This document shows, piece after piece, positions 10,541-35,105 of a stretch of 64,000 nt of DNA (positions within the stretch are counted from its first letter, which is position 1; every line of letters starts with the position of its first letter). Position numbers and translations under genes: made by a program. The notes under the pieces were generated by a model. It was not told where the DNA came from and made no database searches. It worked only from the letters and a program-made list of their open reading frames with translations. Source of the stretch: Hansschlegelia beijingensis (GTDB taxonomy: Bacteria > Pseudomonadota > Alphaproteobacteria > Rhizobiales > Methylopilaceae). The stretch is from positions 682,001-746,000 of the forward strand of contig NZ_JACIDR010000002.1 of assembly GCF_014196425.1 (NCBI RefSeq), written 5' to 3'.

Positions 10541-12601
10541 TCAGTTCACGCGGACGCTGGCCGAGGCGGTCGCGCCGGACGCGTCCATCACCGTGACGCG
10601 CGAGAAGCCCGAGCCGGCGACGGGCCACAGCGTCTCGCGGCGGCGCTCCGGAGGCAGCGGCCGGCCGTCCACCAGCCAGCGAAACGGAGGCGTTCCGCCC
10701 GCCGCCTTGAGGGCGAGTTCGGCGCCGGGCTCGACCTCGACGCGCGCGCCGTCGGGCGGGAAGGCGACCGCGAGCGGCGCGGCCTCGCGAACGCCGAGGA
10801 CCGGCGGCGGCTCTCCGGCGGGACGGAAGCGCCGCAGCGGCGGCGGAAGCTCGGATAGCGTCAGCGCCGCGCCGTCGGGCGGTGGCGCAAGCGGCGCGAT
10901 CGCCGCCCCGGCGCGCGCGAAGGCGTCGAACAGGATCGGGGCCGCGGCCTCCCGGCCCACAAGGCCCGAGCTGGAGGCGCCGTCCGGCCGTCCCGCCCAG
11001 ACGGCGATGACGCGGCGGCCGTCGAAGCCCACCGCCCATGCGTCGCGATAGCCGTAGGAGGTCCCGGTCTTGAAGGCGAGCCTTCCGCCCAGCGCGGCTT
11101 CGGGCGGCGGGCTCTTGAGGAGCGCCTGGGCGACCTGCGCGGCTGCGACCGGGTCGACCAGCCTGCGACCGGGCGCCGCCGCGTCGGCGAGTTCGCCGGG
11201 GTTCACGGTGAGCGGGGTCGTCGCGCCGCCGCGCGCAAGCCCCGCATAGAGCGTCGCGAGGTCGATGAGGCGGACGCCGACGCCGCCGAGCGCGACCGCA
11301 AGGCCCGGGGTCTCGCCTGCCGGCAGCGCGACCGTCGCGCCGGCCGCGCGGAGGCGGGCCACGAAACGCGCCGGCCCGACCGCCTCGAGCAAAGCCACCG
11401 CGGGGATGTTGAGCGACAGCGCTAGCGCCTCGGCGGCGCTCACCGTGCCATGAAACGCCTGGTCGAAGTTGCGCGGAGCGTAATCGCCGAAGCGCGCCGG
11501 CCGGTCCTCGATCAGGGTCGCGGGGGCGGCGAGCCCGTTCTCGAAGGCGAGCGCGTAGATGAACGGCTTCAGCGCCGAGCCCGGCGATCGCACCGCCCGC
11601 GTCTGGTCGAGCGCGCCGGCGCGGGTCGCGTCGAAGTAATCCGCCGAGCCCACCGAGGCTTCGATCGCGCCGGTCGCCACGTCGGCCGCCACGATCGCCA
11701 CCGACAGGCCGGGGCCGAGAGCGCGGGCGCGCTCGCGCGCGAGATCTTCGAGCGAACGCTGCAGATCATGCCTGACGGTGAGCCGGGCCACCGCGCCGGC
11801 GCCCGCGCGGGCCGCCGCGACTTCCGCCACATGGGGCGCGAGGTTCGGGAACTCCCGGCGCCCGTTCGGGACAGGCTCGGCGCTGGCGTGGTCCGCTTCG
11901 GCCGTGGAGATCACGCCGGCGGCGGCGAGCCGTGCCAGCACGCGGTCGCGCGCGGCCTTGGCGGCGGCCCGGTCGCGGTCCGGCCGCCTGGCCTCTGGCG
12001 ACTGAGGGATGGCGACGAGGAGCGCGGCCTCCGCGATCGAAAGCCGCGCGGGCTCCTTGCCGAAGAAGGCGAGGCTCGCGGCCCGCACCCCCTCCAGATT
12101 TCCGCCATACGGCGCGAGCCGCAGATAGAGGTCGAGCACGCCGGTCTTGCCAGCCTCCCGCTCCAGCGCGAGCGCGGCGCCCGCCTCGCGCCATTTCCGC
12201 GGAAGCGTCCGCGAGCGATCGGGCGTCAGAAGCCGGACGACCTGCATGGTGAGCGTGGAGCCGCCCGAGACGATCCCGCCCGAACGCGCCGCCTGCCAGG
12301 CCGCCCTGAGCGCCGCCAGCGGGTCGACGCCCGGATGAGCGAAGAAGCGCTTGTCCTCATAGGCGAGCAGCATCCTCAGGAAGCGCGGGTCGACCTCGGA
12401 TCGCTCGACCGGCAGCCGCCAGGCCCCGTCGGCGGCCGCGAAGGGCCGCAGCAGTCGCCCCTCACGATCGAGCACGAGCGTCGACAGCAGTGCGGAGCGG
12501 CCGGGCTGCGGCGCAGGGATCGAGCCGAGGCTGATCGCCGCCGCGCCGGCTGCGACCAGCGCGAGGAGCGACGCCGCGGCCGCGATCCGGCGCAGTCTCA
12601 C
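10541..12601 (-). CDS. pbpC: Penicillin-binding protein 1C
   Basis: 686 residues. A signal-anchor at 8-25 is followed by a GT51 glycosyltransferase domain (EDKRFFAHPGVDPLAALRAA, GGSTLTMQVVRLL), then a transpeptidase domain with the SxxK motif at Ser342-Lys345 (SPGSALKPF), SLN, and KTGTSYGYRDAW. The C-terminal domain (about 600-686) is the PbpC-specific extension. It synthesises and cross-links peptidoglycan in the periplasm. The start is GTG and overlaps the stop of the upstream alpha-2-macroglobulin gene in a GTGA junction, so the pair is translationally coupled; the same pairing is known in E. coli. Confidence 0.95.
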   Translation of the reverse strand: MRLRRIAAAASLLALVAAGAAAISLGSIPAPQPGRSALLSTLVLDREGRLLRPFAAADGAWRLPVERSEVDPRFLRMLLAYEDKRFFAHPGVDPLAALRAAWQAARSGGIVSGGSTLTMQVVRLLTPDRSRTLPRKWREAGAALALEREAGKTGVLDLYLRLAPYGGNLEGVRAASLAFFGKEPARLSIAEAALLVAIPQSPEARRPDRDRAAAKAARDRVLARLAAAGVISTAEADHASAEPVPNGRREFPNLAPHVAEVAAARAGAGAVARLTVRHDLQRSLEDLARERARALGPGLSVAIVAADVATGAIEASVGSADYFDATRAGALDQTRAVRSPGSALKPFIYALAFENGLAAPATLIEDRPARFGDYAPRNFDQAFHGTVSAAEALALSLNIPAVALLEAVGPARFVARLRAAGATVALPAGETPGLAVALGGVGVRLIDLATLYAGLARGGATTPLTVNPGELADAAAPGRRLVDPVAAAQVAQALLKSPPPEAALGGRLAFKTGTSYGYRDAWAVGFDGRRVIAVWAGRPDGASSSGLVGREAAAPILFDAFARAGAAIAPLAPPPDGAALTLSELPPPLRRFRPAGEPPPVLGVREAAPLAVAFPPDGARVEVEPGAELALKAAGGTPPFRWLVDGRPLPPERRRETLWPVAGSGFSRVTVMDASGATASASVRVN

Positions 12602-15600
12602 TTCGTGGTCACCTCCACGACGCCGACGCCGGTGCGAGCGAAGCGCTCGGCCCGATACATGTCCTCGACCGTGGCGGCCGGCTGCGCGTAGCGGCCGGGC
12701 GCGACGGCGCGCACCACATAGGCGGCCGTGTAGACGACGGGCGCGTCCGCCTCCCGGTCGAACGCCGCGACGAAGCGGTCGTCGCGGAATTCGGAATGCG
12801 TCGGTTGCGGCGCGTCTCCGAGGAACGCGAAGGCGTCGGAGCTCGCGCTCGTCACCAGCGCCGGATTGTCGATCTCGAAGCCGGCCGGCAGCCGGTCGAC
12901 GAGCAGCACCCGGCCAGGCCGGGGCTCCGCCTCGGTCACGGTGAGCACCGCGACGAGCCTCGTGTTCTGGGCCACCCGCGACGGATCCACCTCGACGCCG
13001 GCGGACGTGTAGAAACGCCGCTCGAGGTGGAAGCCGTTCTCGGCCGGCGGCTCGGGCGAGGCGGGCGCGCCCTTAACGGTCACCACCGCCTCCAGCGGCG
13101 TCCGGCCGGCGTTGGTCACGGTCGAGGCCGCGGCCGCGAGACGCGCGGGCGTGAAGGTCGCCTCGAGCGCGCCCTTGTGGGGGGCGCCATCGACGGTCAG
13201 CGTGAGATCGGCGCTCCGGGCCTTCAGCGCGCGCGCGGCGAGCAGCAGCCAGGCGTTCTCCTGCGTGGTCAGAACCTCGCGGCCGCTGCGCGCGGTCATG
13301 ATCCCGCGAATGGCGGCGGGCGAGGCGAGGGCGTCGATGCGGTTCTCCGCCGCGAGCGCCACGATCCCGGCGCGATCCCGGAGCACCGATCCGAAGTCGG
13401 CGCGGGCGGCGTCGTCCGGCGGGTTGATCTCGGCCGCCGCGAAAGCCTTCCTGGCGCGGGCGAAGTCGCCGGCCTGCGCGAGCGCCGCGCCGATCTGCGC
13501 GCGGGCGAGGGGGCTCGCGAACTCCTCGATCTTGACGTCGGCCAGGTAGCGCAGGTCGCCCAGCAGCGGGCGACCCTGCTTGGCCAGCACGTAATAGGCG
13601 TAGGCGACGTCGCTTTCGGTCGAATCCTGCCGCACGCCGATAGCGTTGCGAAGGTTGTCGAGCGCCTGGCTGAAGGCGCGGTCCGAGGCGGGGAAGCCCG
13701 CCGCTCGCGCCCGGCCGAGCGCGTCGGTGACATAGGCGTCGAGCCAGAGGTCGCCGCCCTCCGCGGACCACATGCCGAAGGATCCGTTGGCGTCCTGGCG
13801 CGACAGGATGCGCTCGATCATCTCCGACGCGCGCGCCTTCACCTCCTCGGGCGCGGCGCCCGAGAGCCCGAGCTCGTCGCCATAGGCGAGCGCCAGCAGC
13901 CGGCTCGAGAGCTGTTCCGAGCAGGCGTAGGGGTAGCCGTCGAGCGCCAGCTTGAAGGTCGCGGCGTCGAGCATGCCGGGCTTGCCGACGGTCAGCGCGA
14001 CCGAACCTGTCCCGGGAATGATGTCGGCGAGGGTGTCGCGAGACACGGTCACGCTCGCGCCCTCGGCGAGGGCGATGACGCTGCGTCGCGTCACCGGCGT
14101 GGCGGCGGGCTTGACGTCGAGCGCGAGCGCCTGCGCCAGCGTGCGCCCGTCAGGCCCCTTGAGCGTGACGTCGATCCGCGCAGGGCCGACGCCGCGCGCC
14201 GCGAGCGGGACCTCGATCGTCCCGCGCGCCTTGGCCGCCAGCGTGAGCTTCTTCGAGGCGGCGGAGGCGGAGAGCGGGCCGGAGACCGCGACGTCGACCT
14301 GATAGTCGCCTGCGGGGCCGGAGACGTTGTCGAGATCGAGCCTCAGCCGCGAGGAATCGCCGTCGGCCAGAAAGCGCGGCAGGGCCGTTGTCGCCACCAC
14401 CGGGTCGGCGACCACGAGATCCTTCGAGGCATGGCCGAGCTTGCCGGCTGACCAAGCGATGGCCATCAGCCTGACCGTCCCGTTGAACGCCGGCAGCTCG
14501 ATCGGAATGACGGCCTCGCCGCCAGGGCCGACAGGCACGAGCCCGGAGAACAGCGCCAGCGGCGGCTGGGTCGGCGTGTCCTGCAACCCGCCCGCGCCGG
14601 CGCCGTCGCCGCCCGAGCGGATCTTGCCGGCCTTCGCCCCCATGCCGTCGATTAACTGCCCATAGAGGTCGCGGATCTCGGTCGCGAGCTTGCGCTGGCC
14701 GTAGACCGCCTCGTCCGGGGCCGGCGGCTTGTAGCCCGTCAGGTTCAAGATCCCGACGTCGACCGCCGCGAGCGTCACGTAGGCCTTCTCGCCGGCCGCG
14801 AGGTTCGTCAGTCGCACGGGCACGTCGAGCGAGCGACGGGGCTCCACCTGCCCGGGGGCGTCGATCGCGACCCCCAGGGTGCGGTCGGCGGCGTCGATCT
14901 GCGCGTGCGCGACGCCGATCGCCCGGCCGGGCATGCGGCTGGCCTTCGCGTCGAGCGGACGGTGCACGAAGGTCACCACATAGGCCCCGGGCCGCCACGC
15001 GTCGGTGACCGCGAAGGTCGCCGTCCCGCCCTTCTCCGACACGTCCAGCGTCGCCTGATCCACCACGCCGGAGCCGACCACCATCACGGTGGCGCGGCCG
15101 GCGAAGCGGGAGGCCAGGGTGACGGTCGCGGTCTCGCCCGTCCGGTAGCTCGGCCTGTCGAGCGCGACGTCCATCATGTCGGGCGTGTCGGCCGAGGCGG
15201 CGGCGAAGAAGCCGGCGTCGAAAGCCACGCTGGTGGCGGGCCCCTGCGGGTCCGGACTGGTCACCTCGAGGCGATAACGGCCATAGGCCACCTTGGCCTC
15301 AACCCGCGCCGCGCCGTCGGCCGCGACGTCAAGCTTGCCGTCCGCGACGCGGCGGGCGCGATTGACGGTCTCGAAGTTCCAGCGCCCATTGCTGGAGTAC
15401 CACTGATAGCTCGTCTCGATCCGGACCAGCTGCCAGGCGAGCCCCTGCGCGGCCGCTCCCTTGCCGTCGGGCCCAAGGACGCGCACGTCGAAGCGCGCGG
15501 TTTCGCCGTCGCCGACGCGGTCGGCGAACAGCGGCTTCACCCCGATGCGCGGACCGGAGGCCGCGACCGGCAGGACCAGCTTTCGCTCGAGCGTCCGCCC

Positions 15601-23022: not shown

Positions 23023-23940
23023 TCACTCCACGCCCAGCACCCGGGCGCGGATCTGCTCGAGGCGCCCGAGCCGTTCGACTGTCTCCGGACCGGAGAGCTC
23101 GGTGGCGCGGGCGACCAGCGCCTCCGTGACCGCCAGCAGGCTCGCAAAGGAGTCCCAGGCTCCGGCGCTTTCGGTGGCGCCCACCAGCGTCGCATTGGCG
23201 TGCGCGGCGGCCGGAGCATTCGCTGAATCGGTCAGCAGCACGACCCAGGCGCCACGCTCCGCCGCGAAGGCGCACAGCCGGATGACGTCGCGCTGATAGC
23301 GGCGCACGTCGTAGGCCACGATCACGGTCCGGCGGCCGACGTCGATCAGCCGGTCCGGCCAGGTGGCGGAAAGCGAGCCGATCTCCTCCACCCCGCCGCG
23401 GACGATCTCGAGATGTCTGACGAGCAGCCGGGCCAGCGCCTGGCTGAAGCGCCCGCCCACGACCAGCACATGGCGCTTCGGATCGGCGAGCCGCCGGGCC
23501 GTCGCCTCGAACTCGGCGCGGTCGAGGTCGCGGAACGCCTCCACGACGTTCTCCGCGAGCTTCGCCCCGAAAGCCGCCAGCCTGTCGCCGTCCAGAAGCC
23601 CCGTCGCCGCGTGGGCGGTCCAGCGGCCGAGGGGCGAGACGCGTTCGGCGGCGAGCTCCGCGCGGAGCCGCTCCTGCAGGCCGCGCCAGCTTTGGAAGCC
23701 GAGCTTGGCCAACAGCCGCAGCACCGTCTGCGAGCTCACGCCGGCGCTGCGCGCGAAGCGCGCCATCGGGGCGAGACCGGCGACCGGATAATGCGCGGCG
23801 AGATGCTCGGCCGCGCGGCGTTCGCGCGGCGTGAGCCCGGACATGATCTCCGCAAGAGCCTGCGCGACGGTTCCGGAGAAGGCCGTCGCCGCGTTCGCCG
23901 CCATCGCAGTCTCATGCTCCGCAATCATGGTCACGTTCAT
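23023..23940 (-). CDS. MurR/RpiR-family transcriptional regulator
   Basis: 305 residues from ATG 23940; ATG 23928 or the later MAANAATAF are alternatives. An N-terminal RpiR helix-turn-helix (about 25-95) includes ARFARSAGVSSQTVLRLLAK and LGFQSWRGLQERL. The C-terminal SIS (sugar isomerase) domain (about 130-275) shows HVLVVGGRFSQALARLLVRH and WVVLLTDSANAPAAAHANAT. RpiR proteins sense phosphosugars or other small metabolites. The gene diverges from the permease gene of the amino-alcohol locus, and the 144-bp gap holds a perfect 16-bp palindrome, so it is the likely repressor or activator of that locus. SIS-domain regulators of amine pathways are unusual but known. Confidence 0.88.
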   Translation of the reverse strand: MNVTMIAEHETAMAANAATAFSGTVAQALAEIMSGLTPRERRAAEHLAAHYPVAGLAPMARFARSAGVSSQTVLRLLAKLGFQSWRGLQERLRAELAAERVSPLGRWTAHAATGLLDGDRLAAFGAKLAENVVEAFRDLDRAEFEATARRLADPKRHVLVVGGRFSQALARLLVRHLEIVRGGVEEIGSLSATWPDRLIDVGRRTVIVAYDVRRYQRDVIRLCAFAAERGAWVVLLTDSANAPAAAHANATLVGATESAGAWDSFASLLAVTEALVARATELSGPETVERLGRLEQIRARVLGVE

Positions 23941-23946
23941 TCCATA

Positions 23947-23983
23947 TTGACAGAAACGTGACCTCTCTGGAACGATCGTTCCA
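23947..23983 (+). promoter_or_regulatory. promoter and 16-bp palindromic operator of the amino-alcohol locus
   Basis: TGGAACGATCGTTCCA at 23968-23983 is a perfect palindrome between the divergent RpiR and permease genes. A consensus -35 box TTGACA at 23947-23952 points towards the permease, and the -10 region 17-18 bp later (about 23970-23976, a weak match) would fall inside the palindrome. This geometry fits repression of the permease operon by the adjacent RpiR protein. Confidence 0.6.
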
Positions 23984-24084
23984 ACGAGGGGCGGCGTCGA
24001 CCCCGCCTCCGGCGGCCGGGGGACGCGCCGCCTCGCCCGGGGAGTCACGCCGGGCGTCCCGTCGACGTCAACGGGGCTCATCTC

Positions 24085-25587
24085 ATGGCGCAAGATGGAC
24101 GCGGCGTGACCTACCAGACGGTAGACGCCGGCTACTTCGAAAAGCGTGGATTGATGCGTTACGCGGGCGTCGCGAGCCTTTGGGCTCTCGGCGTCGGCGC
24201 CGTGATCTCTGGCCATTTCTCGGGCTGGAACTTCGGTTTCTCGACCGGCGGCTGGGGCGGCATGCTGGTCGCCGGGATCATCATCGCGATCATGTATCTC
24301 GGCCTCACGTTCTCGATCGCCGAGATGTCGGCGGCGCTGCCGCACACCGGCGCGGCCTATTCGTTCGCCCGCACCGCGATGGGGCCGTGGGGAGGCTTCC
24401 TCACCGGCCTCTGCGAGAACGTCGAATACGTCATCACCCCGGCCGTGGTGGTGACCTTCATCACCTCCTACGTGAATGCGATCTTCGGGCTCGATCCGGC
24501 CTATTCGCCGCTCACCTGGATCGCGTTCTACGCCGTGTTCGTGGCGCTCAACGTGTTCGGGCTCGAGCTGTCGTTCCGCGTCACGATGATCGTGACGCTG
24601 ATCTCGCTCGCCGTGCTGGTCTTCTTCTGGCTCAGCGCGATCCCCAACATGGATTTCTCGCGCTGGGCGCTGAACATCGGGGTCGGGCCGGACGGCGCCG
24701 CCGTCGAGCTTCCCGAGGGCGGGGGCGAGCTCTTCCCGTTCGGCCTCTCGGGCGTGCTGGCCACGCTTCCGTTCGCGGTCTGGCTTTTCCTCGCGATCGA
24801 GCAACTCCCGCTCGCGGCCGAGGAGTCCATCGACCCGAAACGCGACATGCCGAAGGGCATCATCCTGGGCATGATCACCCTGATGGTCTCGGCCTTCATG
24901 ATCGTGCTGCTGAACCCGTCGGTGATCGGCGTCGGCTCGTTCAAGCTGAGCTCGTCGCTGGAGCCGCTGCTCGACGGGTTCCGGGCGATCTACGGCGACA
25001 GCGGCGTGGTGGTGCTGGGGCTCGTGGCGCTCACCGGTCTGATCGCGAGCTTCCACACGATTCTGTACGCGCAGGGGCGGCAGATCTACTCGCTGTCGCG
25101 GGCGGGCTACTTCCCGCGCGGCCTGTCGGTCACGCACGCCACCTACCGGACGCCGCATCTCGCGATGTTCGTCGGCTCGATCGTCGGGCTCGCGGTGATG
25201 CTCGTGATCTGGTTCGCCCTCGGGGCCGAGCAGGCGGGCGCCTCGATCGGCAGCGTTCTGCTCAACATGGCCGTGTCGGGCGCGATGTTCTCCTACATCG
25301 CCCAGGCGGTGTCGTTCATCCTCTTGCGCAGCAGAAGCCCGCACATCGAACGGCCGTTCCGCAGCCCGCTCGGCGTTCCGGGGGCGGTCCTGACCATCGT
25401 CATCGCGGTGGTCACGCTCGGCTACCAGGTCCAGGACCCGAACTTCACCAAGGGCGTGCTGTGGGTGCTGGTGTGGTTCGCCATCGCGATCGTCTATTTC
25501 GCCGCGGTCGGCCGCCACAAGCTGGTGCTGTCGCCCGAGGAGGAGTTCGCGCTCTCGGGCGGCAAGGCCGAGTACCGCTCGCACTGA
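24085..25587 (+). CDS. APC-family permease, ethanolamine permease (Eat) type
   Basis: 500 residues with about twelve membrane helices. The N-terminal region RYAGVASLWALGVGAVISGH and NFGFSTGGWGGMLVAG match the ethanolamine permease subgroup of the amino acid-polyamine-organocation family better than general amino acid permeases. AEMSAALPHTGAAYSFARTA and FLAIEQLPLAAEESIDPKRD are typical APC motifs. It is the first gene of a five-gene plus-strand set with a glutamine-synthetase-like ligase, two dehydrogenases and an amidotransferase-like hydrolase. That context suggests import of ethanolamine or a related amino alcohol. Substrate assignment is by family resemblance only. Confidence 0.85.
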   Translation: MAQDGRGVTYQTVDAGYFEKRGLMRYAGVASLWALGVGAVISGHFSGWNFGFSTGGWGGMLVAGIIIAIMYLGLTFSIAEMSAALPHTGAAYSFARTAMGPWGGFLTGLCENVEYVITPAVVVTFITSYVNAIFGLDPAYSPLTWIAFYAVFVALNVFGLELSFRVTMIVTLISLAVLVFFWLSAIPNMDFSRWALNIGVGPDGAAVELPEGGGELFPFGLSGVLATLPFAVWLFLAIEQLPLAAEESIDPKRDMPKGIILGMITLMVSAFMIVLLNPSVIGVGSFKLSSSLEPLLDGFRAIYGDSGVVVLGLVALTGLIASFHTILYAQGRQIYSLSRAGYFPRGLSVTHATYRTPHLAMFVGSIVGLAVMLVIWFALGAEQAGASIGSVLLNMAVSGAMFSYIAQAVSFILLRSRSPHIERPFRSPLGVPGAVLTIVIAVVTLGYQVQDPNFTKGVLWVLVWFAIAIVYFAAVGRHKLVLSPEEEFALSGGKAEYRSH

Positions 25588-25656
25588 ACCGTCACCCGTC
25601 CCGGCCGGCGACGGAGATCATCCGCCGCCGGCTCCTCGCCAACCTGTCGAGAGCAG

Positions 25657-27021
25657 ATGAGCAAAGCGGAGACGACCGCCAAGGACCTCCTCGCGCTGGT
25701 GGACAAGCGCGGCCTGTCGCACGTCAAGCTCGGCGTCGCCGACGCCGACGGCATCCTGCGCGGCAAGTATATGAGCCGCGACAAGTTCGCCTCGGCTCTC
25801 GAGAACGGCTTCGGCTTCTGCGACGTCGTGCTGGGTTGGGACTCCAACGACCAGCTCTACGACAATGTCAGCCTCACCGGCTGGCACACGGCCTATCCGG
25901 ACGCCGCGGTCCGGGTGCTTCCGGAGACGGCGCGCGACCTGCCGCTGGAAGGCGAGATGCTCTTCGTTCTCGGCGAGTTCGCCGGGCGCGCCGAGGAGGT
26001 CTGCCCGCGCGGAACGCTGCGGCGCGTGCTCGACCGGGCCTCGGGCATGGGTTTCAAGGTGAAGTCGGCGGTCGAGTTCGAGTTCTTCCTGTTCGAGGAG
26101 ACGCCGCATTCCGTCCGGGACAAACGCTATGCCGGCCTGACGCCGATGACGCCCGGCTTCTTCGGCTATTCCGTGCTGCGCTCGGGCGTGCACGCCGAGT
26201 TCTACGCCGAGCTGCTGAAGCTCTGCGCGGACATGCGGATGCCGATCGAGGGGCTGCACACGGAGACCGGGCCGGGCGTGCTGGAGGCCGCGATCGAGGT
26301 TTCGGACGCGCTCGAGGCTGCGGACCGGGCCGTGCTGTTCAAGACCTTCACCAAGGTCCTCGCCCAGCGCCGCGGCCTGATGGCGACCTTCATGGCCAGA
26401 TGGTCGAAGGACTGGCCGGGCCAGTCCGGCCATATCCACGTTTCGCTCCAGAGCGACGACGGCGGCTCCGTCTTCCACGAGGAAGGCCGCGCGCACGCGA
26501 TGTCCGACGCCATGCGCTGGTTCGTGGGCGGGCAGCAGCACCTCATGCCCGATCTGCTCGCGATGGTGTCGCCGACGGTGAATTCCTACACGCGGCTGAT
26601 CCCGGGCTTCTGGGCGCCGACCGACGCCACCTGGGGCGTCGAGAACCGGACCTGCGCGCTGCGGGTCATTCCCGGATCGCCGAAGAGCCAGCGCGTCGAG
26701 TACCGGGTGGCGGCGGCCGACATCAATCCATACGTGGCGCTCGCGGCCGCCATCGGCTCCGGGCTGTGGGGCATCGAGAACCGGATCGAGCCGGATTCCG
26801 CCATCGAGGGCAACGCCTACGCCCTTCGGCATGCGCCCGAACGGGCCCTGCCGCGCTCGCTTGGCGAGGCCGCCGCCCGGTTCGCTGCGTCGGCGCCGGC
26901 GAAGGAGCTGTTCGGCGAGGCTTTCGTGGAGCACTGGGCCGCGACCCGCGACTGGGAGCAGCGCGAGTTCAACAAGGCCATCACCGATTGGGAGCTGGAG
27001 CGGTATTTTGAGATCATCTGA
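25657..27021 (+). CDS. Glutamine synthetase-like gamma-glutamylamide ligase (PuuA/IpuC type)
   Basis: 454 residues with glutamine synthetase N-terminal beta-grasp and catalytic domains. Catalytic-core landmarks are present: KSAVEFEFFLFEE (metal Glu), EGLHTETGPGVLEA, the SGHIHVSLQ histidine strand, PTVNSYTRLIPGFWAP, and ENRTCALRVIPG. The adenylylation loop of housekeeping GlnA is absent, as in PuuA, IpuC and Streptomyces GlnA4. These use amines instead of ammonia to make gamma-glutamyl-putrescine, -isopropylamide or -ethanolamide. With an ethanolamine-type permease and an iron alcohol dehydrogenase beside it, gamma-glutamylation of an amino alcohol is the best inference. Confidence 0.88.
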   Translation: MSKAETTAKDLLALVDKRGLSHVKLGVADADGILRGKYMSRDKFASALENGFGFCDVVLGWDSNDQLYDNVSLTGWHTAYPDAAVRVLPETARDLPLEGEMLFVLGEFAGRAEEVCPRGTLRRVLDRASGMGFKVKSAVEFEFFLFEETPHSVRDKRYAGLTPMTPGFFGYSVLRSGVHAEFYAELLKLCADMRMPIEGLHTETGPGVLEAAIEVSDALEAADRAVLFKTFTKVLAQRRGLMATFMARWSKDWPGQSGHIHVSLQSDDGGSVFHEEGRAHAMSDAMRWFVGGQQHLMPDLLAMVSPTVNSYTRLIPGFWAPTDATWGVENRTCALRVIPGSPKSQRVEYRVAAADINPYVALAAAIGSGLWGIENRIEPDSAIEGNAYALRHAPERALPRSLGEAAARFAASAPAKELFGEAFVEHWAATRDWEQREFNKAITDWELERYFEII

Positions 27022-27090
27022 AGCGCCACCCCGGAGGGCGCGGCGCGCCGATCTGAGATCCCTCTGCGGAGAGGCGCACGAGAAACCGCC

Positions 27091-27180
27091 GTCGTCCTCC
27101 GGCTTGACCGAAGGACCCGCCTCGGGCGTAGACCTCGACCCTTGAGCTGGATGGTCCGGTCAGGCCGGACCATGACGGGC
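27091..27180. repeat. palindromic intergenic repeat, copy 1
   Basis: A 90-bp element that aligns without gaps to a second copy at 28671-28760. Both ends are hairpins. The left one is CCTCCGG/CCGAAGG with one mismatch. The right one is GGTCCGG/CCGGACC, perfect, near 27153-27173. The right-hand stem differs from copy 2 by paired changes, so the structure is what is conserved. Elements of this look are dispersed in many Hyphomicrobiales genomes. It lies between the ligase and aldehyde dehydrogenase genes. Confidence 0.75.
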
Positions 27181-27260
27181 ATAGTTCTGACAACGATCCC
27201 GGCTCTCTCTCCGTCGCCGGGATGACGGCTTCCCTTCGGCGGGACCGACAGGTGACATCG

Positions 27261-28646
27261 ATGACCGACCAGATCTGCATCTCTCCCGTCGACGGCCGCG
27301 AACTGGCCCGCCGGCCGACCGAGTCCGCCGCTGCGATGGAGGCGATTCTCGCCGATGCGCGGCGCGCCCAGCTTGAATGGGCCGAAGTCCCAATCGCCGA
27401 GCGCGGGCGCAAGATGCTCGTCTTCCTCGACGCGCTGCTGGGCCTCAATCAGCAGATCATCCCCGAGCTCGCGCTGCAGATGGGGCGCCCCGTTCGGTTC
27501 GGGGGCGAGATGCGCGGCGTGGAGGAGCGGGTGAAGCACTGCGTCGCGACCGCGGAGGCGTCGCTCGCGCCGATCGTTCCGGAGCCGAAGCCCGGCTTCC
27601 GGCGCATGATCAAGCGCACGCCGCTCGGCCTGGTGTTCGTGATCGCGCCCTGGAACTACCCGTTCCTGACGGCCGTGAACACGATCGTGCCCGCGCTCAT
27701 CGCCGGCAACGCCGTGCTACTGAAGCACGCCGCCCAGACCATCCTGGTCGGCGAGCGCTTTCAGGAGGCGATGGACAAGGCCGACCTTCCGAAGGGCCTG
27801 TTCCGCAACGTGGTGCTCGACCACGAGCAGGCCGGCGCCCTGATCGCCGCCGGCGCCTTCGACCACATCAACTTCACCGGCTCGGTGGCGGGCGGCCGCG
27901 CCGTCGAGAAGGCGGCGGCCGGGACCTTCACGAGCCTGGGGCTTGAGCTTGGCGGCAAGGACCCCGCCTATGTGCGCGCGGACGCCGACCTCGACTTCGC
28001 CATCGAGAACATCGTCGACGGCGCGTTCTACAATTCGGGCCAGTGCTGCTGCGGGGTCGAGCGCATCTACGTGCACGAGAGCCTCTACGACCGCTTCGTC
28101 GCGGGCGCGGTGGAGCTGACCTCCAGATACGTGCTCGGAAACCCCCTCGACGACGCCACCACCCTCGGGCCCATGTCCGCCGCGCGCTTCGCCGAAACGG
28201 TGCGGTCGCAGACGCGCGAGGCGCTCCAGAAGGGCGCGAAGGCGCATCTCGATCCCAAGGCCTTCCCGGCGGACCGCGAGGGCACGCCCTATCTGGCGCC
28301 GCAGATCCTCACCGGGGTCGACCACTCCATGCGCGTGATGGTCGAGGAGAGCTTCGGGCCGGTCGTCGGGATCATGAAGGTCCGCGACGATGACGAGGCC
28401 GTCCGCCTGATGAACGACAGCCCCTATGGCCTCACCGCGTCGATCTGGACGCGCGAGGTGGATGTCGCCGAGGCGCTCGGCGACCGGATCCAGACGGGCA
28501 CGGTCTATATGAACCGGTGCGACTATCTCGATCCGGCGCTGGCCTGGACCGGCGTCAAGGACACCGGGCGCGGGGCCTCGCTCTCCGAGATCGGCTTTCA
28601 GCTCCTGACGCGGCCAAAGAGTTTTCACCTGCGCGAGGCCCGATGA
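27261..28646 (+). CDS. Aldehyde dehydrogenase, likely for gamma-glutamyl-aminoaldehyde
   Basis: 461 residues. ATG 27261 follows AGGTGAC and is preferred over an ATG 39 bp earlier. NAD-binding and catalytic motifs are complete: VIAPWNYPFLTAVNTIVPAL (substrate/cofactor Asn), FTGSVAGGRAV, the general-base Glu in LELGGKDPAYV, and the nucleophile Cys263 in NSGQCCCG. ESFGPVVGIMKV is the usual C-terminal motif. In the Puu pathway the matching enzyme oxidises gamma-glutamyl-aminobutyraldehyde; here the aldehyde would come from the alcohol dehydrogenase encoded next. Confidence 0.9.
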   Translation: MTDQICISPVDGRELARRPTESAAAMEAILADARRAQLEWAEVPIAERGRKMLVFLDALLGLNQQIIPELALQMGRPVRFGGEMRGVEERVKHCVATAEASLAPIVPEPKPGFRRMIKRTPLGLVFVIAPWNYPFLTAVNTIVPALIAGNAVLLKHAAQTILVGERFQEAMDKADLPKGLFRNVVLDHEQAGALIAAGAFDHINFTGSVAGGRAVEKAAAGTFTSLGLELGGKDPAYVRADADLDFAIENIVDGAFYNSGQCCCGVERIYVHESLYDRFVAGAVELTSRYVLGNPLDDATTLGPMSAARFAETVRSQTREALQKGAKAHLDPKAFPADREGTPYLAPQILTGVDHSMRVMVEESFGPVVGIMKVRDDDEAVRLMNDSPYGLTASIWTREVDVAEALGDRIQTGTVYMNRCDYLDPALAWTGVKDTGRGASLSEIGFQLLTRPKSFHLREAR

Positions 28647-28670
28647 TCCGGCGCGGCTTCGAATGAGGCT

Positions 28671-28760
28671 CGTCGTCCTCCGGCTTGTCCGGAGGACCCA
28701 TCGACGGCGTAGCGCTCCACGCCCGGCATGGATCCTCCGGTCAGGCCGGAGGATGACGGC
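28671..28760. repeat. palindromic intergenic repeat, copy 2
   Basis: A 90-bp copy of the element at 27091-27180, same orientation and length. Left hairpin CCTCCGG/CCGGAGG and right hairpin ATCCTCCGG/CCGGAGGAT are both perfect. Relative to copy 1, the right stem has GGT changed to CCT on one arm and ACC to AGG on the other: compensatory changes. It lies between the aldehyde and alcohol dehydrogenase genes. Confidence 0.75.
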
Positions 28761-28811
28761 GGAGGATTTCCGGAGCGACCGACGCAGACGAACGTCCGAG
28801 AGACAGCAGCG

Positions 28812-29987
28812 ATGACCGGCTTCACAGCTTCCTGGAACTACCCGACCCGCGTGCTGTTCGGCCCCGGCCGGATCGCGGAGATCGCCGACGCCTGCGCGAC
28901 GGCCGGGATCAAGCGTCCTCTGTTCGTCACCGACGCGGGGCTGAAGGACGCCGACATCACCCGCCGCGCGCTCGAGCGGCTCGCGGGCGCGGGGCTTCAC
29001 GTCTCGACCTTCTCGGACGTGAAGGGCAACCCGACCGGCGGAAACGTCGATGCGGGCGTCGCAGCCTACCGCGAGGCGGGCGCGGACGGGGTGATCGCCT
29101 TCGGCGGCGGCTCGGGGCTGGACGTGGGCAAGCTCGTCGCCCTGATGGTCGGACAAACCCGTCCGGTCTGGGACTTCGAGGATATCGGCGACTGGTGGAC
29201 CCGCGCGGACGCCGACAGGATCGCGCCGATCGTCGCGGTCCCCACGACCGCGGGCACGGGCTCCGAGGTCGGACGCGGCGCGGTGGTGACCAATGAGGAG
29301 ATCCACGAGAAGAAGATCATCTTCCACCCGAAGCTGCTGCCCGCGGTGGTGATCTCCGACCCTGAGCTCACGGTCGGCCTGCCGCCCAAGCTGACGGCCT
29401 GGACCGGATTCGACGCGCTGGCGCATTGCCTCGAGGCGTTCTCGGCGCCGGGCTTCCACCCGATGGCCGACGGCATCGCGGCGAACGGCGCGCGGCTCGT
29501 GAAGACCTACCTGCCGCGCGCGGTCGCCAACGGGGCGGACATCGAGGCGCGCTCCAACATGCTGGCGGCCGCCTCGATGGGCGCCGCCGCCTTCCAGAAG
29601 GGGCTCGGCGCCATTCACTCGATGTCGCATCCGGTGGGGGCCCTTTACGACACCCATCATGGTCTCACCAACGGCGTGGTGATGCCGTATGTGCTTCTCG
29701 CAAACCGGCCGGCGATCGAGGAGCGCTTCGGCCATCTCGCGCGCTCGCTGGAGATCCCGGGCGGCTTCGACGGCTTCATCGAGTGGGTGCTGCGCTTCCG
29801 GAAGGAGCTCCATGTGCCGCACGCGCTGGGCGAACTCGGCGTAGGCGAGGACCGCATCGACGAGCTCGCCGAAAAGGCCGAGCGCGATCCTTCCACCGGC
29901 GGGAACCCGCTGCCCTTCAAGGCCGCTGATTTCGCGCGGCTGTTCCGCGCCGCCATCCGCGGCGATCTCGACGCCGCGCGAGGCTGA
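28812..29987 (+). CDS. Iron-containing (group III) alcohol dehydrogenase
   Basis: 391 residues from ATG 28812; the frame is open 28 codons upstream through the repeat, which is not homologous to the family. NAD-binding segments GGGSGLDVGKLVALM and PTTAGTGSEV are clear. Metal ligands are spread over the second half: GFDALAHCLEAF, SAPGFHPMADG, and GAIHSMSHPVGALYDTHHGLTNG. Members oxidise primary alcohols with NAD+. In this locus the predicted job is to oxidise the hydroxyl of a gamma-glutamylated amino alcohol to its aldehyde. The next gene starts 3 bp after its stop. Confidence 0.9.
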   Translation: MTGFTASWNYPTRVLFGPGRIAEIADACATAGIKRPLFVTDAGLKDADITRRALERLAGAGLHVSTFSDVKGNPTGGNVDAGVAAYREAGADGVIAFGGGSGLDVGKLVALMVGQTRPVWDFEDIGDWWTRADADRIAPIVAVPTTAGTGSEVGRGAVVTNEEIHEKKIIFHPKLLPAVVISDPELTVGLPPKLTAWTGFDALAHCLEAFSAPGFHPMADGIAANGARLVKTYLPRAVANGADIEARSNMLAAASMGAAAFQKGLGAIHSMSHPVGALYDTHHGLTNGVVMPYVLLANRPAIEERFGHLARSLEIPGGFDGFIEWVLRFRKELHVPHALGELGVGEDRIDELAEKAERDPSTGGNPLPFKAADFARLFRAAIRGDLDAARG

Positions 29988-29990
29988 GCG

Positions 29991-30866
29991 ATGCGCCCTG
30001 TCCGGCTGCTCGTCGCGGAGGGCAATCCGCCCAAGATGCGCGAGCGGCACGCCGCCGTCTCCGGACGGACCCCGAGCCAGTTCTACGCGGACGTCCTTGC
30101 CATGCTGGCCGAGGACCTTGGCGTCGCCGCCGAGATCGACATCTGCTTTCCGGCCGACCAGGGCGCCAATCTGCCGGGCGGCGACCTCGCCGGCTATGAC
30201 GGCGTCGCCATCACGGGGTCGGGCCTCAATCTCTGGAAGGCGGAGCCGGAATCCCTCGCCCAGGTGGAGTTCGCGCGGGCCGTCTACGCGTCGGGGCTGC
30301 CGTTCTTCGGCTCCTGCTGGGGCCTGCAGGTCGCGGCGGCGGCGGCGGGCGGCGAGGTGAAGCTCAACCCACAGGGCCGCGAGATCGGCATCGCGCGCTC
30401 GATCCGCATCACCGACGCGGGCCGCGGCCACCCTCTGCATGCGGACCGCACGGAGGTGTTCGACGCGCCGGCGATCCATTCGGACGAGGTCGCGGTGCTG
30501 CCGCCGAACGCCACCGTGACGGCGACCAACGAGCTCTGCGCGGTGCAGGCGGCCGAGATCCGGCATGGCAAAGGCGTGTTCTGGGGCGTCCAGTTCCACC
30601 CCGAATACACCTTCGCGGAGCTCGGCGGCATCCTGACCCGCTACACGCCGGTCATGCTCAAGGAGGGCTTCTTCCGCGAGCCGGAGGAGGCCGCCCGCTA
30701 CGTCTCCGATCTTGTCGCGCTCGACGATGAGCCCGGGCGCAAGGACGTGGCTTGGCGGCTCGGGATCGCGCCGTCAGTGCTCGACCCGAAGGTCCGCAGG
30801 ACCGAGCTCACCAACTGGCTGAGGTCCCAGGTGCTGCGGACCGCGAGCGCCCGCGGCCGCGCCTGA
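29991..30866 (+). CDS. Class I glutamine amidotransferase-like hydrolase
   Basis: 291 residues. The class I nucleophile elbow GSCWGLQ has Cys109, and the His-x-Glu pair is in VQFHPEYTF, so the triad is complete. Around 55 residues after the core (about 235-291) form a charged extension ending in ELTNWLRSQVLRT. It is not fused to or next to a synthase partner that would need ammonia. As the last gene of the locus it is the natural candidate to hydrolyse the gamma-glutamyl bond and return glutamate, as PuuD does. GMP-synthase-like amidotransferase of unknown partner is the alternative. Confidence 0.85.
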   Translation: MRPVRLLVAEGNPPKMRERHAAVSGRTPSQFYADVLAMLAEDLGVAAEIDICFPADQGANLPGGDLAGYDGVAITGSGLNLWKAEPESLAQVEFARAVYASGLPFFGSCWGLQVAAAAAGGEVKLNPQGREIGIARSIRITDAGRGHPLHADRTEVFDAPAIHSDEVAVLPPNATVTATNELCAVQAAEIRHGKGVFWGVQFHPEYTFAELGGILTRYTPVMLKEGFFREPEEAARYVSDLVALDDEPGRKDVAWRLGIAPSVLDPKVRRTELTNWLRSQVLRTASARGRA

Positions 30867-31163: not shown

Positions 31164-32363
31164 TCACACCGCCTTGAGCGCGATCGAGACGTCCTCGAGC
31201 AGATCGTCGCGGTCCTCGAGCCCGACCGAGAGGCGCAGCATCGCGTCCGTGATGCCGAGCTCGGCGCGCGCCTCGGGGGACAGCCGCTGGTGCGTCGTGG
31301 TCGCTGGATGCGTCAGGATCGACTTGGCGTCGCCCAGGTTGTTGGAGATCTTGGCGATCCGCAGCGCGTTGCCGAACCGGAACGCCTCGGCCTTGCTGCC
31401 GTCGAGCGTGAACGCCACCAGCGTGCCGCCGCCGGCCATCTGCTTCTTCACGAGCGCCGCCTGCGGGTGGTCGTCGCGCCCGCAGTAAACCAGCCGCTTC
31501 ACCTTCGGATGATCGGCCAGAAGGTCCGCGATCGCGGCGGCGTTCGCCTGCATCTTCTCGACCCGCAGCGCCAGCGTCTCGAGGCCTTTGGCCAGGACCC
31601 AGGCGTTGAACGGGGATAGCGACGGGCCGGTCTGCCGCAGGAAGGTCTGCAGATGGTCCGTCACGAACTTTTCCGAGGACAGCACGACGCCGCCCAGCGT
31701 GCGGCCCTGGCCGTCGATGTGCTTGGTCGCCGAATAGACCACGACGTCCGCGCCGAGGCTCAGCGGCCGCTGCAGCACCGGGGTCGCGAACACGTTGTCC
31801 ACCACGAGCAGGGCGCCCGCCTGATGCGCGATCTTCGCGATCGCTTCGATGTCGTAGACCTCGAGGGTCGGATTGGTCGGGCTCTCGAGGAAGAACGCCT
31901 TGGTCTCGGGCCGCGCGGCGGCGCGCCACTGTTCGAGATCGGCGCCGTCGACGAGCGTCGAGGCGACGCCGAAACGCGGCAGCAGATCCTCGACCACGTA
32001 TCGGCAGGAGCCGAACAGCGCCTTGGCCGCCACCACATGATCGCCGGCCTTCACCTGGCACAGCATCGCGGCCGTCACCGCCGCCATGCCGCTGGCGGTC
32101 GCGCGCGCCGCCTCGGCGCCTTCCAGCGCCATCATGCGACGCTCGAAGGTCGAGACCGTCGGGTTCGAGAAGCGCGAGTAGATGTAGCCGGGGTCGCTGC
32201 CGTCAAAGCGCGCTTCGGCCGCCTCCATCGTGTCGTAGGCGTAGCCGGAGGTGAGGTAGAGCGCCTCCGACATCTCGCCGAAGGTCGAGCGGCTCTCGCC
32301 CTCGTGGATCAGCCGCGTGGCGGGACGCAGCGGGCGGTCTGTGGGGAGTCTTTCGCGGCTCAT
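31164..32363 (-). CDS. metZ: O-succinylhomoserine sulfhydrylase
   Basis: 399 residues from ATG 32363, which has GAGG 8 bp upstream; an ATG ten codons earlier is less likely. Cys/Met-metabolism PLP enzyme fold: YSRFSNPTVSTFERRMMALE, the PLP lysine Lys214 in SATKHIDGQGR, and THPATTTHQRL near the C terminus. It makes homocysteine directly from O-succinylhomoserine and sulfide in methionine synthesis. A SAM-II riboswitch in the leader strongly supports the role and predicts repression by S-adenosylmethionine. Confidence 0.93.
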   Translation of the reverse strand: MSRERLPTDRPLRPATRLIHEGESRSTFGEMSEALYLTSGYAYDTMEAAEARFDGSDPGYIYSRFSNPTVSTFERRMMALEGAEAARATASGMAAVTAAMLCQVKAGDHVVAAKALFGSCRYVVEDLLPRFGVASTLVDGADLEQWRAAARPETKAFFLESPTNPTLEVYDIEAIAKIAHQAGALLVVDNVFATPVLQRPLSLGADVVVYSATKHIDGQGRTLGGVVLSSEKFVTDHLQTFLRQTGPSLSPFNAWVLAKGLETLALRVEKMQANAAAIADLLADHPKVKRLVYCGRDDHPQAALVKKQMAGGGTLVAFTLDGSKAEAFRFGNALRIAKISNNLGDAKSILTHPATTTHQRLSPEARAELGITDAMLRLSVGLEDRDDLLEDVSIALKAV

Positions 32364-32385
32364 GATGCGACCTCGGACGGCGCCG

Positions 32386-32411
32386 GGCCGCACGTGACGC
32401 CCGATGCGGCC
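32386..32411 (-). other. hairpin between SAM-II aptamer and metZ start
   Basis: GGCCGCA and TGCGGCC form a 7-bp stem with a 12-base loop, immediately 3' of the riboswitch aptamer and 12 bp before the GAGG ribosome site of metZ. It could be part of the expression platform or an mRNA stabiliser. No T-run follows it. Confidence 0.4.

Positions 32412-33743: not shown

Positions 33744-35105
<1,362 letters not shown>

Follow-up and report, generated by a model that had tools for sequence, protein, structure and literature searches.

A probable ethanolamine operon in Hansschlegelia beijingensis as a variant of the known gamma-glutamylation pathway

Ethanolamine arises from the breakdown of membrane lipids and is a common source of nitrogen and carbon; EutB is the marker usually sought for its use. 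Here we describe a cluster of six genes with open frames at positions 23023-30866 of a 64,000-nucleotide stretch of the Hansschlegelia beijingensis genome (this whole stretch, on contig C2, is called the window below). The genes lie in a divergent layout and encode an RpiR regulator, a permease, a glutamine synthetase (GS)-like ligase, an aldehyde dehydrogenase (ALDH), an iron alcohol dehydrogenase (Fe-ADH) and a class-I glutamine amidotransferase (GATase)-like hydrolase; all six were listed, with the divergent RpiR, in an earlier sequence-only reading of this DNA, and all six are present. With a probability of about 0.82, we regard the cluster as an ethanolamine catabolic operon that proceeds via gamma-glutamylation and works like the operon of Phaeobacter. 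It would be a variant of that known pathway, sharing its Fe-ADH, ALDH and RpiR, with the ligase, hydrolase and importer replaced. The genome measures 3.66 Mb, at an estimated completeness of 100%.

The route itself is not new, since it has been proposed for S. coelicolor in 2019 and for Phaeobacter in 2023. GlnA4 of S. coelicolor was assayed and joins ethanolamine to glutamate with a Km of 0.47 mM for ethanolamine, and the authors proposed that the product is oxidised to gamma-glutamylacetaldehyde and on to gamma-glutamylglycine, which is hydrolysed to glycine and glutamate (Krysenko et al. 2019, PMC6529630). The proteins of the Phaeobacter operon RpiR-GGAH-EtoVWX-ETAGA-GAADDH-GETADH rise on phosphorylethanolamine, and EtoX binds ethanolamine with a Kd of 7.9 uM; C. 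salexigens and Agrobacterium are named there as earlier cases (Westermann et al. 2023, PMC10132767). A review restates the route (PMC9397018).

From comparison with these systems, in gene content and order, kinship of the parts, loss of the ammonium site, linkage to TRAP genes and avoidance of the other ligase, we infer the substrate, each reaction, its direction and the regulation. Ethanolamine would enter through the APC permease, after which the ligase would couple its amine, at the expense of ATP, to the gamma-carboxyl group of glutamate, giving gamma-glutamylethanolamide. The Fe-ADH would then oxidise the alcohol to the aldehyde with the amine still masked, the ALDH would carry the aldehyde on to gamma-glutamylglycine, and the class-I amidotransferase-like enzyme would cleave the gamma-glutamyl bond, yielding glycine and the recovered glutamate; RpiR would govern the divergent operon. 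A closed route of this kind for ethanolamine or a related amino alcohol had been suggested from the sequence alone; our comparison supports it, with ethanolamine as the most likely substrate and glycine as the product. An alcohol dehydrogenase, an ALDH and a candidate gamma-glutamyl hydrolase indeed stand in one operon with the ligase.

The dehydrogenase pair

In Paracoccus denitrificans (L073) and Ruegeria sp. B32 (L176), an operon of RpiR, N-formylglutamate amidohydrolase, the small, large and binding components of a TRAP importer, a GS-like ligase, ALDH and an iron alcohol dehydrogenase matches the published layout of Phaeobacter MED193 position for position (PMC10132767). By this layout, GETADH of Phaeobacter would be an Fe-ADH; the main text of that paper does not use the term alcohol dehydrogenase, and a search of the open-access literature found no paper naming an Fe-ADH in ethanolamine gamma-glutamylation. 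Loci with this TRAP/FGase-type (Phaeobacter-layout) ligase are called canonical here, and loci with relatives of the window's ligase window-type. The window holds an Fe-ADH and an ALDH of the Phaeobacter-layout families next to its divergent RpiR: compared with canonical loci of the window's order and of Paracoccus, identity is 56-65% for the Fe-ADH and 54-66% for the ALDH. The sequence-only reading had taken the Fe-ADH as the mark of a different route. As operons of the published layout hold the same Fe-ADH and ALDH, a new route on account of this enzyme is rejected, and the parts that truly differ, which that reading missed, are the ligase, the hydrolase and the transporter.

The ALDH, a proposed gamma-glutamyl-aminoacetaldehyde dehydrogenase (27261..28646, plus strand, in an open reading frame (ORF) that opens at 27222), matches Aldedh with 381 bits and carries ELGGK at 242 and NSGQC at 271 of the ORF. 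The Fe-ADH, a proposed gamma-glutamylethanolamide dehydrogenase (28812..29987, plus strand, ORF opening at 28728), matches Fe-ADH with 168 bits and ADH_Fe_C with 126 bits. The best family model for the Fe-ADH is 4-hydroxybutyrate dehydrogenase (342 of 500 bits); that for the ALDH is succinic semialdehyde dehydrogenase (314 of 521 bits). Neither match reaches its cut-off, and neither decides the substrate.

For the wider comparison we used 95 window-type loci (the window, L038-L048, L070-L072 and L076-L155), in which near relatives such as L038/L076 and L081/L084 are counted separately. Eighty of them are the best 80 of at least 580 relatives, selected by likeness to the window's ligase, so that the context fractions describe near relatives. 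The 31 canonical loci (L056-L062, L067-L069, L073 and L156-L175) were picked by their ligase, and hence not every one holds the whole operon; L001-L037, L049-L055, L063-L066, L074-L075 and L176 stand outside both counts. Gene identities come from tblastn matches to between one and five queries per gene, an approach that can overlook distant hydrolases or permeases, and the labels FGase, APC and GATase come from Pfam searches with the query proteins.

This search across genomes bore out the conservation of the set. Methylopila capsulata DSM 6130 (L076), the nearest named relative found, with a ligase 80% identical, and the congener G142 (L038) both carry all six genes in the identical arrangement, at 78-87% identity to the window's, and therefore the cluster is no chance neighbourhood. 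A contiguous ligase-ALDH-Fe-ADH series occurs in 58 of the 95 window-type loci, with the GATase directly next in 27 of those 58. In a tree of 102 Fe-ADH sequences built by a quick method (71 from window-type loci, 26 from canonical loci and 5 from the ABC-importer loci described below), the type of ligase changes at least six times, three of these changes being forced by starred branches; we count this, as a sign of a shared core, in favour of ethanolamine. The label is strongly clustered all the same, as shuffled labels require 23-27 changes.

Two side observations concern this pair. A Rhizobium leguminosarum plasmid (L071) has a window-type ligase with an ALDH, accompanied by a GMC oxidoreductase and a Peptidase_C26 gene but by no Fe-ADH, perhaps another exchange, this time at the alcohol step. 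In the canonical operon L057, two small overlapping genes for DUF7662 (PF24698) and a PIN domain (PF01850) lie between ligase and ALDH at 10993-11797, an odd place for a toxin-antitoxin-like pair, within a catabolic operon. The pair recurs in L056 and L059, and for L068 only the PIN-cluster gene was called (Pfam was run on L057's pair).

Ligase, hydrolase, importer and regulator

The ligase (25657..27021, plus strand) is a proposed gamma-glutamylethanolamide synthetase of window type, as judged by its match to Gln-synt_C (325 bits), its residue pattern and its place in the tree. It remains under every NCBIfam equivalog cut-off, with 220 of 429 bits for GlnA, 198 against 470 for gamma-glutamylmethylamide synthetase (type III, TIGR03105) and 187 against 650 for gamma-glutamylputrescine synthetase (NF045547). 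Use of methylamine is rejected on the TIGR03105 score. In an alignment read by eye, the position that corresponds to Glu327 of glutamine synthetase carries Trp319, and there is no FDGSS motif (Asp50); the metal-site Glu/His, the substrate-site Arg and the residues serving metals, glutamate and ATP have been retained. By the criteria of PMC6529630 the ligase thus lacks the ammonium-site residues and keeps the catalytic ones, as described there for GlnA4 and PauA7. The genome has its own GlnA, with the FDGSS and GFEAP motifs.

To the ligases of ten canonical loci, the window's enzyme is 31-33% identical. Against the solved structure 5dm3, presumably the Csal_0679 ligase of C. salexigens, the canonical L057 ligase scores 615 bits and the window's 194 bits; an ortholog of this 5dm3-like ligase of the Phaeobacter layout was not found in the cluster. 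A ligase tree of 46 rows took in 22 of the 95 window-type and 12 of the 31 canonical ligases, partly by random draw, together with a further two GS-like genes from the genome of the window (L065 and L066), and carries a long-branch warning. In it the canonical ligases form one clade (100/100) with the window's ligase outside, and the window type neighbours ligases from loci with ABC importers, nearer to IpuC than to the canonical ones; its group is weakly supported with the most distant row (82/27) and well supported without L071 (99/97). A search of the open-access literature found no paper on this clade.

The ABC-linked ligases (L050-L054, and L075 on a Shinella sumterensis plasmid) form a third group that adjoins ABC importer genes, as seen by Pfam on parts of L051 and L052 and by annotation on L075. 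Five of the six have an Fe-ADH, and this group probably gamma-glutamylates some other amine. In G085 (L039:3586-6826) a second, distant ligase and a second GATase lie directly beside the window-type cluster. In G094, on a short contig, the frames of ligase and Fe-ADH are both broken (L047:9184-10563 and 11980-13146), through either decay or sequencing error.

The hydrolase, a proposed gamma-glutamylglycine hydrolase (29991..30866, plus strand), matches the class-I GATase family with 60 bits (cut-off 22.8) and Peptidase_C26 with 38 bits, and has its Cys motif GSCWGLQ at residue 107 and FHPE at 202. It fills the slot in which an FGase-family hydrolase was looked for in the cluster and not found. 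Two GATase subtypes occur, GSCWGLQ in the window and others, and GICFGHQ or GVCFGHQ in Legionella, Halomonadaceae and others. Its nearest matches among solved structures (18 sequences with E <= 1e-5, at 28-50 bits) comprise GMP synthases, an aminodeoxychorismate synthase and a gamma-glutamyl peptidase, and are uninformative on substrate. The permease (24085..25587, plus strand), of the APC family and of ethanolamine permease (Eat) type, matches AA_permease_2 with 114 bits and is nearest to the ethanolamine permease model TIGR00908, with 349 bits against 133 for the next NCBIfam model, which we count in favour of ethanolamine. It takes the place of the TRAP transporter EtoVWX, which was not found in the cluster.

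Both slots vary beyond the window. Among 65 well-flanked window-type loci (at least 6 kb on both sides), 50 have ALDH and Fe-ADH, 25 a GATase and 18 an FGase (one has both). For importers the counts are 22 with an Eat-type permease, 13 with a different APC permease and 6 with a TRAP binding protein; 18 loci have an RpiR, and 15 are without any listed importer or listed hydrolase. The 26 well-flanked canonical loci have ALDH and Fe-ADH in 21 cases, FGase in 20, a TRAP binding protein in 15, and a GATase beside the FGase in 2. A choline/ethanolamine-kinase-like gene (PF01633, by Pfam on L042's gene alone) is found within 8 kb in 8 of the 65 window-type loci (L041-L046, L099 and L107) and in none of the 26 canonical ones, a further point in favour of ethanolamine.

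The RpiR-type regulator (23023..23940, minus strand, with its start codon uncertain between 23940, 23928 and 23904) matches SIS with 52.5 bits (cut-off 25) and HTH_6 with 27 bits, slightly below the cut-off of 28.3. The TRAP-type operons likewise carry a divergent RpiR, that of six canonical loci being 33-40% identical to the window's; the identity is 78-79% in L038 and L076 and 55% in L039. Inspection of the sequence between regulator and permease revealed a perfect 16-bp palindrome, TGGAACGATCGTTCCA (23968..23983), with a TTGACA hexamer adjoining at 23947-23952. Its GGAA-N6-TTCC pattern recurs in L038, L039 and L076, the three loci with an RpiR 55-79% identical to the window's, and in total occupies 6 of 39 RpiR-operon gaps, where 0.12 were expected from single-base shuffling. 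The other 33 gaps searched lack it, and where measured the RpiR of such loci is 33-43% identical to the window's. The palindrome is thereby ruled out as a general operator of the RpiR family. As a candidate operator for this regulator, it is perhaps the site through which RpiR controls the divergent operon.

Two 89-bp repeats, 77.5% identical to each other, lie within the operon at 27090..27178 and 28671..28759, one in each of two gaps of about 165 and 240 bp, and the long ORF of the Fe-ADH begins within the second copy. The translations and this repeat suggest that the real starts probably lie slightly inside the long ORFs, near 23940 or 23904 for RpiR, 27261 for the ALDH and 28812 for the Fe-ADH. 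Outside the cluster, 22236-23009 matches no family, an O-succinylhomoserine sulfhydrylase lies at 31164 and an NADP-glutamate dehydrogenase at 33744; we found no ground for adding these three flanking genes to it.

Substrate and competing explanations

In 10 of the 95 window-type loci, a TRAP solute-binding protein lies within 8 kb of the ligase; its identity to the one in canonical L057 is 65-75%. The protein of L040 matches one distinct sequence among solved structures at E <= 1e-30, namely 4uab/4xf5 (565 bits), and 4uab shows Csal_0678 with Glu220 holding ethanolamine (PMC12410723). Taking chain residue 217 to correspond to Glu220, the ethanolamine-binding Glu motif is kept in 10 of the 10 proteins, eight by pattern and those of L093 and L101 by reading.

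Furthermore, the two ligases avoid each other, in tests that ignore shared ancestry. Among 150 genomes of the window's order, 13 have the window-type and 71 the canonical ligase, with an overlap of 1 against 6.2 expected (p 0.002); among 289 genomes of its class, 46 and 30 have them, with an overlap of 0 against 4.8 (p 0.004). EutB coincides with either ligase in 5 genomes against 18.3 expected in the order (p 1e-7) and in 2 against 6.0 in the class (p 0.03). Exactly one of the three genes is present in 105 of 111 genomes of the order that have any, and in 95 of 97 of the class, where the window-type ligase is the commonest (46 of 289, against 30 canonical and 23 EutB). The order sample applied at least 67% identity for the window type (its 13 genomes include the window's own), E <= 1e-100 for the canonical ligase, which takes in G087 at 52%, and E <= 0.001 for EutB, which takes in a 96-base stretch in G089 (E 6.8e-6); the class sample used E <= 1e-140 for both ligases and 1e-50 for EutB. 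The samples overlap in the window's own genome and at least three genomes of the order. The TRAP linkage and the mutual avoidance of the ligases both fit one substrate, ethanolamine. No match to EutB was found in the window's own genome, in line with the sequence-only reading, which had seen no ethanolamine ammonia-lyase, and the cluster cannot be assigned to the eut pathway. Among congeners, G034, G076 and G111 have EutB without a window-type ligase, G142 has both, and the window's genome (G000) has the ligase only; it is possible that within this genus one ethanolamine route has taken the place of another.

The same chemistry might serve another primary amino alcohol, such as L-alaninol, 3-aminopropanol or serinol, ending in alanine, beta-alanine or serine. 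We think this unlikely, although IpuC and the ligases found with ABC importers and Fe-ADH are closer kin of the ligase clade than the canonical ligase is, and the permease falls under the ethanolamine cut-off: the EtoX-like binding protein with its ethanolamine-binding Glu in 10 of 95 loci, and the close kinship of Fe-ADH and ALDH to enzymes of ethanolamine operons, speak for ethanolamine, and avoidance of the canonical ligase would be unexpected under a separate substrate. A route of Ipu type, in which isopropylamine or ethylamine is glutamylated, hydroxylated and oxidised to an amino acid, would account for a ligase 37% identical to ipuC of strain TC1, whose cluster has an APC permease, an ALDH and a GATase, and the window's genome does hold one P450 over cut-off. 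This P450, however, lies at C2:614129-615304, about 67 kb outside the window. The TC1 cluster has a P450, a ferredoxin, a ferredoxin reductase and a short-chain dehydrogenase (SDR) and no Fe-ADH, and none of these genes, nor any hydroxylase for a glutamylated alkylamine, was seen among the genes scanned around our cluster, where small ferredoxins were not looked for; we therefore rate the Ipu route as very improbable.

Still less probable is the catabolism of putrescine or a polyamine of the Puu kind. It has a similar order of reactions (glutamylation, two oxidations, hydrolysis), and the hydrolase also matches Peptidase_C26, which we take to be the family of PuuD. However, the ligase falls far below the gamma-glutamylputrescine synthetase cut-off (187 of 650 bits), an amine-oxidase family is absent among the six genes, and an alcohol dehydrogenase is not known to play a role in the Puu route. 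That the genes are merely neighbours without a single pathway, or that the ligase assimilates ammonia, we hold to be scarcely credible. The two repeat-bearing gaps do break the operon, but the ligase-ALDH-Fe-ADH order is held in 58 of 95 loci in many lineages, the ammonium-site residues are gone from the ligase, and the genome has a separate GlnA.

Several points weigh against an ethanolamine operon of the Phaeobacter kind. The ligase is closer to IpuC, an isopropylamine enzyme (37%), than to the canonical ligase (31-33%), the permease's 349 bits stay below the curated TIGR00908 cut-off of 381.75, and the TRAP link is limited to 10 of the 95 window-type loci. The labels on the Fe-ADH tree are clustered, with 21 of the 26 canonical rows in one group, and in 17 of the 95 window-type loci, some at contig ends, ALDH, Fe-ADH and hydrolase are all missing directly behind the ligase. 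The neglect of ancestry applies to all co-occurrence tests. The result for EutB against either ligase in the order is carried by canonical genomes; the window type against EutB alone is not significant (2 against 2.9 in the order, p 0.42; 1 against 3.7 in the class, p 0.09), the same is true in the class for the canonical ligase and EutB (1 against 2.4, p 0.28), and G142 carries both EutB and a window-type ligase. No assay, expression or growth data were found for this organism or for any window-type ligase.

Glycine and the closest known systems

Beyond the single operon, we consider it slightly better than an even bet that the route is modular as a whole, with a constant Fe-ADH/ALDH core, a switched ligase, varied slots for hydrolase and import, and glycine that passes into the serine cycle. 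The core would be its most constant part, and the ligase slot would have been switched several times between two separate clades. Two unrelated families, FGase and class-I GATase, would fill the hydrolase slot, and TRAP importers, Eat-type APC and other APC permeases that of import.

So what would become of the glycine? In the window's genome, at its estimated completeness of 100%, we found no GcvP over cut-off and no GcvH of the glycine cleavage system, and the sole GcvP match below cut-off is the O-succinylhomoserine sulfhydrylase at 31164-32393 of the window. Glycine would therefore need another exit, such as serine hydroxymethyltransferase. The genome has two PQQ alcohol dehydrogenases that exceed the TIGR03075 cut-off, as might be expected of a methanol user, and kinship suggests a serine cycle; in a serine-cycle methylotroph, the serine hydroxymethyltransferase exit would be the serine cycle itself. 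If the modular reading is true, a presumed methylotroph without EutB would feed glycine straight into that cycle. The cluster itself offers a natural example of one pathway with its entry and exit enzymes replaced and its middle retained. Genomes like this one would escape a census based only on EutB and the canonical ligase.

How, then, does the cluster relate to the systems described so far? The ipuC cluster on plasmid pTC2 of Paenarthrobacter aurescens TC1 shares an APC permease, an ALDH, a GATase and a ligase 37% identical, but has a P450, ferredoxin, ferredoxin reductase and SDR with no annotated Fe-ADH, where the window has an Fe-ADH. The GlnA4 cluster resembles it in a gamma-glutamylethanolamide synthetase, an ALDH, a hydrolase and glycine as proposed product, and its Fig. 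2 legend lists a glutamine amidotransferase gene, orf5 (PMC6529630). It has a short-chain dehydrogenase in contrast to the Fe-ADH of the window, and at the Glu327 position GlnA4 is described to have Phe331 where the window's ligase has Trp319 (PMC6529630). With Chromohalobacter salexigens (Csal_0678, 4uab; 5dm3), the proposed pathway is shared (PMC9397018), and a binding protein of 4uab type also adjoins window-type ligases; 5dm3 groups with the canonical ligase, unlike the window's.

Window-type clusters have been found on plasmids of Legionella lytica (L070), Rhizobium leguminosarum (L071) and Burkholderia vietnamiensis G4 (L072), with transposase genes near the latter two, which fits transfer between lineages. 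The Legionella plasmid, pLlyPCM2298_1, has a ligase (62%), ALDH (53%), Fe-ADH (54%) and GATase in the window's order, but its GATase is of the other subtype (GICFGHQ), and no RpiR or APC permease is present among the genes annotated within 8 kb in an incomplete gene table. Phaeobacter sp. MED193, lastly, resembles the window in its RpiR, its proposed chemistry and its end products, and in the ALDH (54-66%) and Fe-ADH (56-65%) of the operons that match its layout. That layout has a TRAP importer and an FGase-family hydrolase, whereas the window has an APC permease and a class-I GATase, and the ligase of operons with MED193's layout forms a separate clade, 31-33% identical to that of the window.

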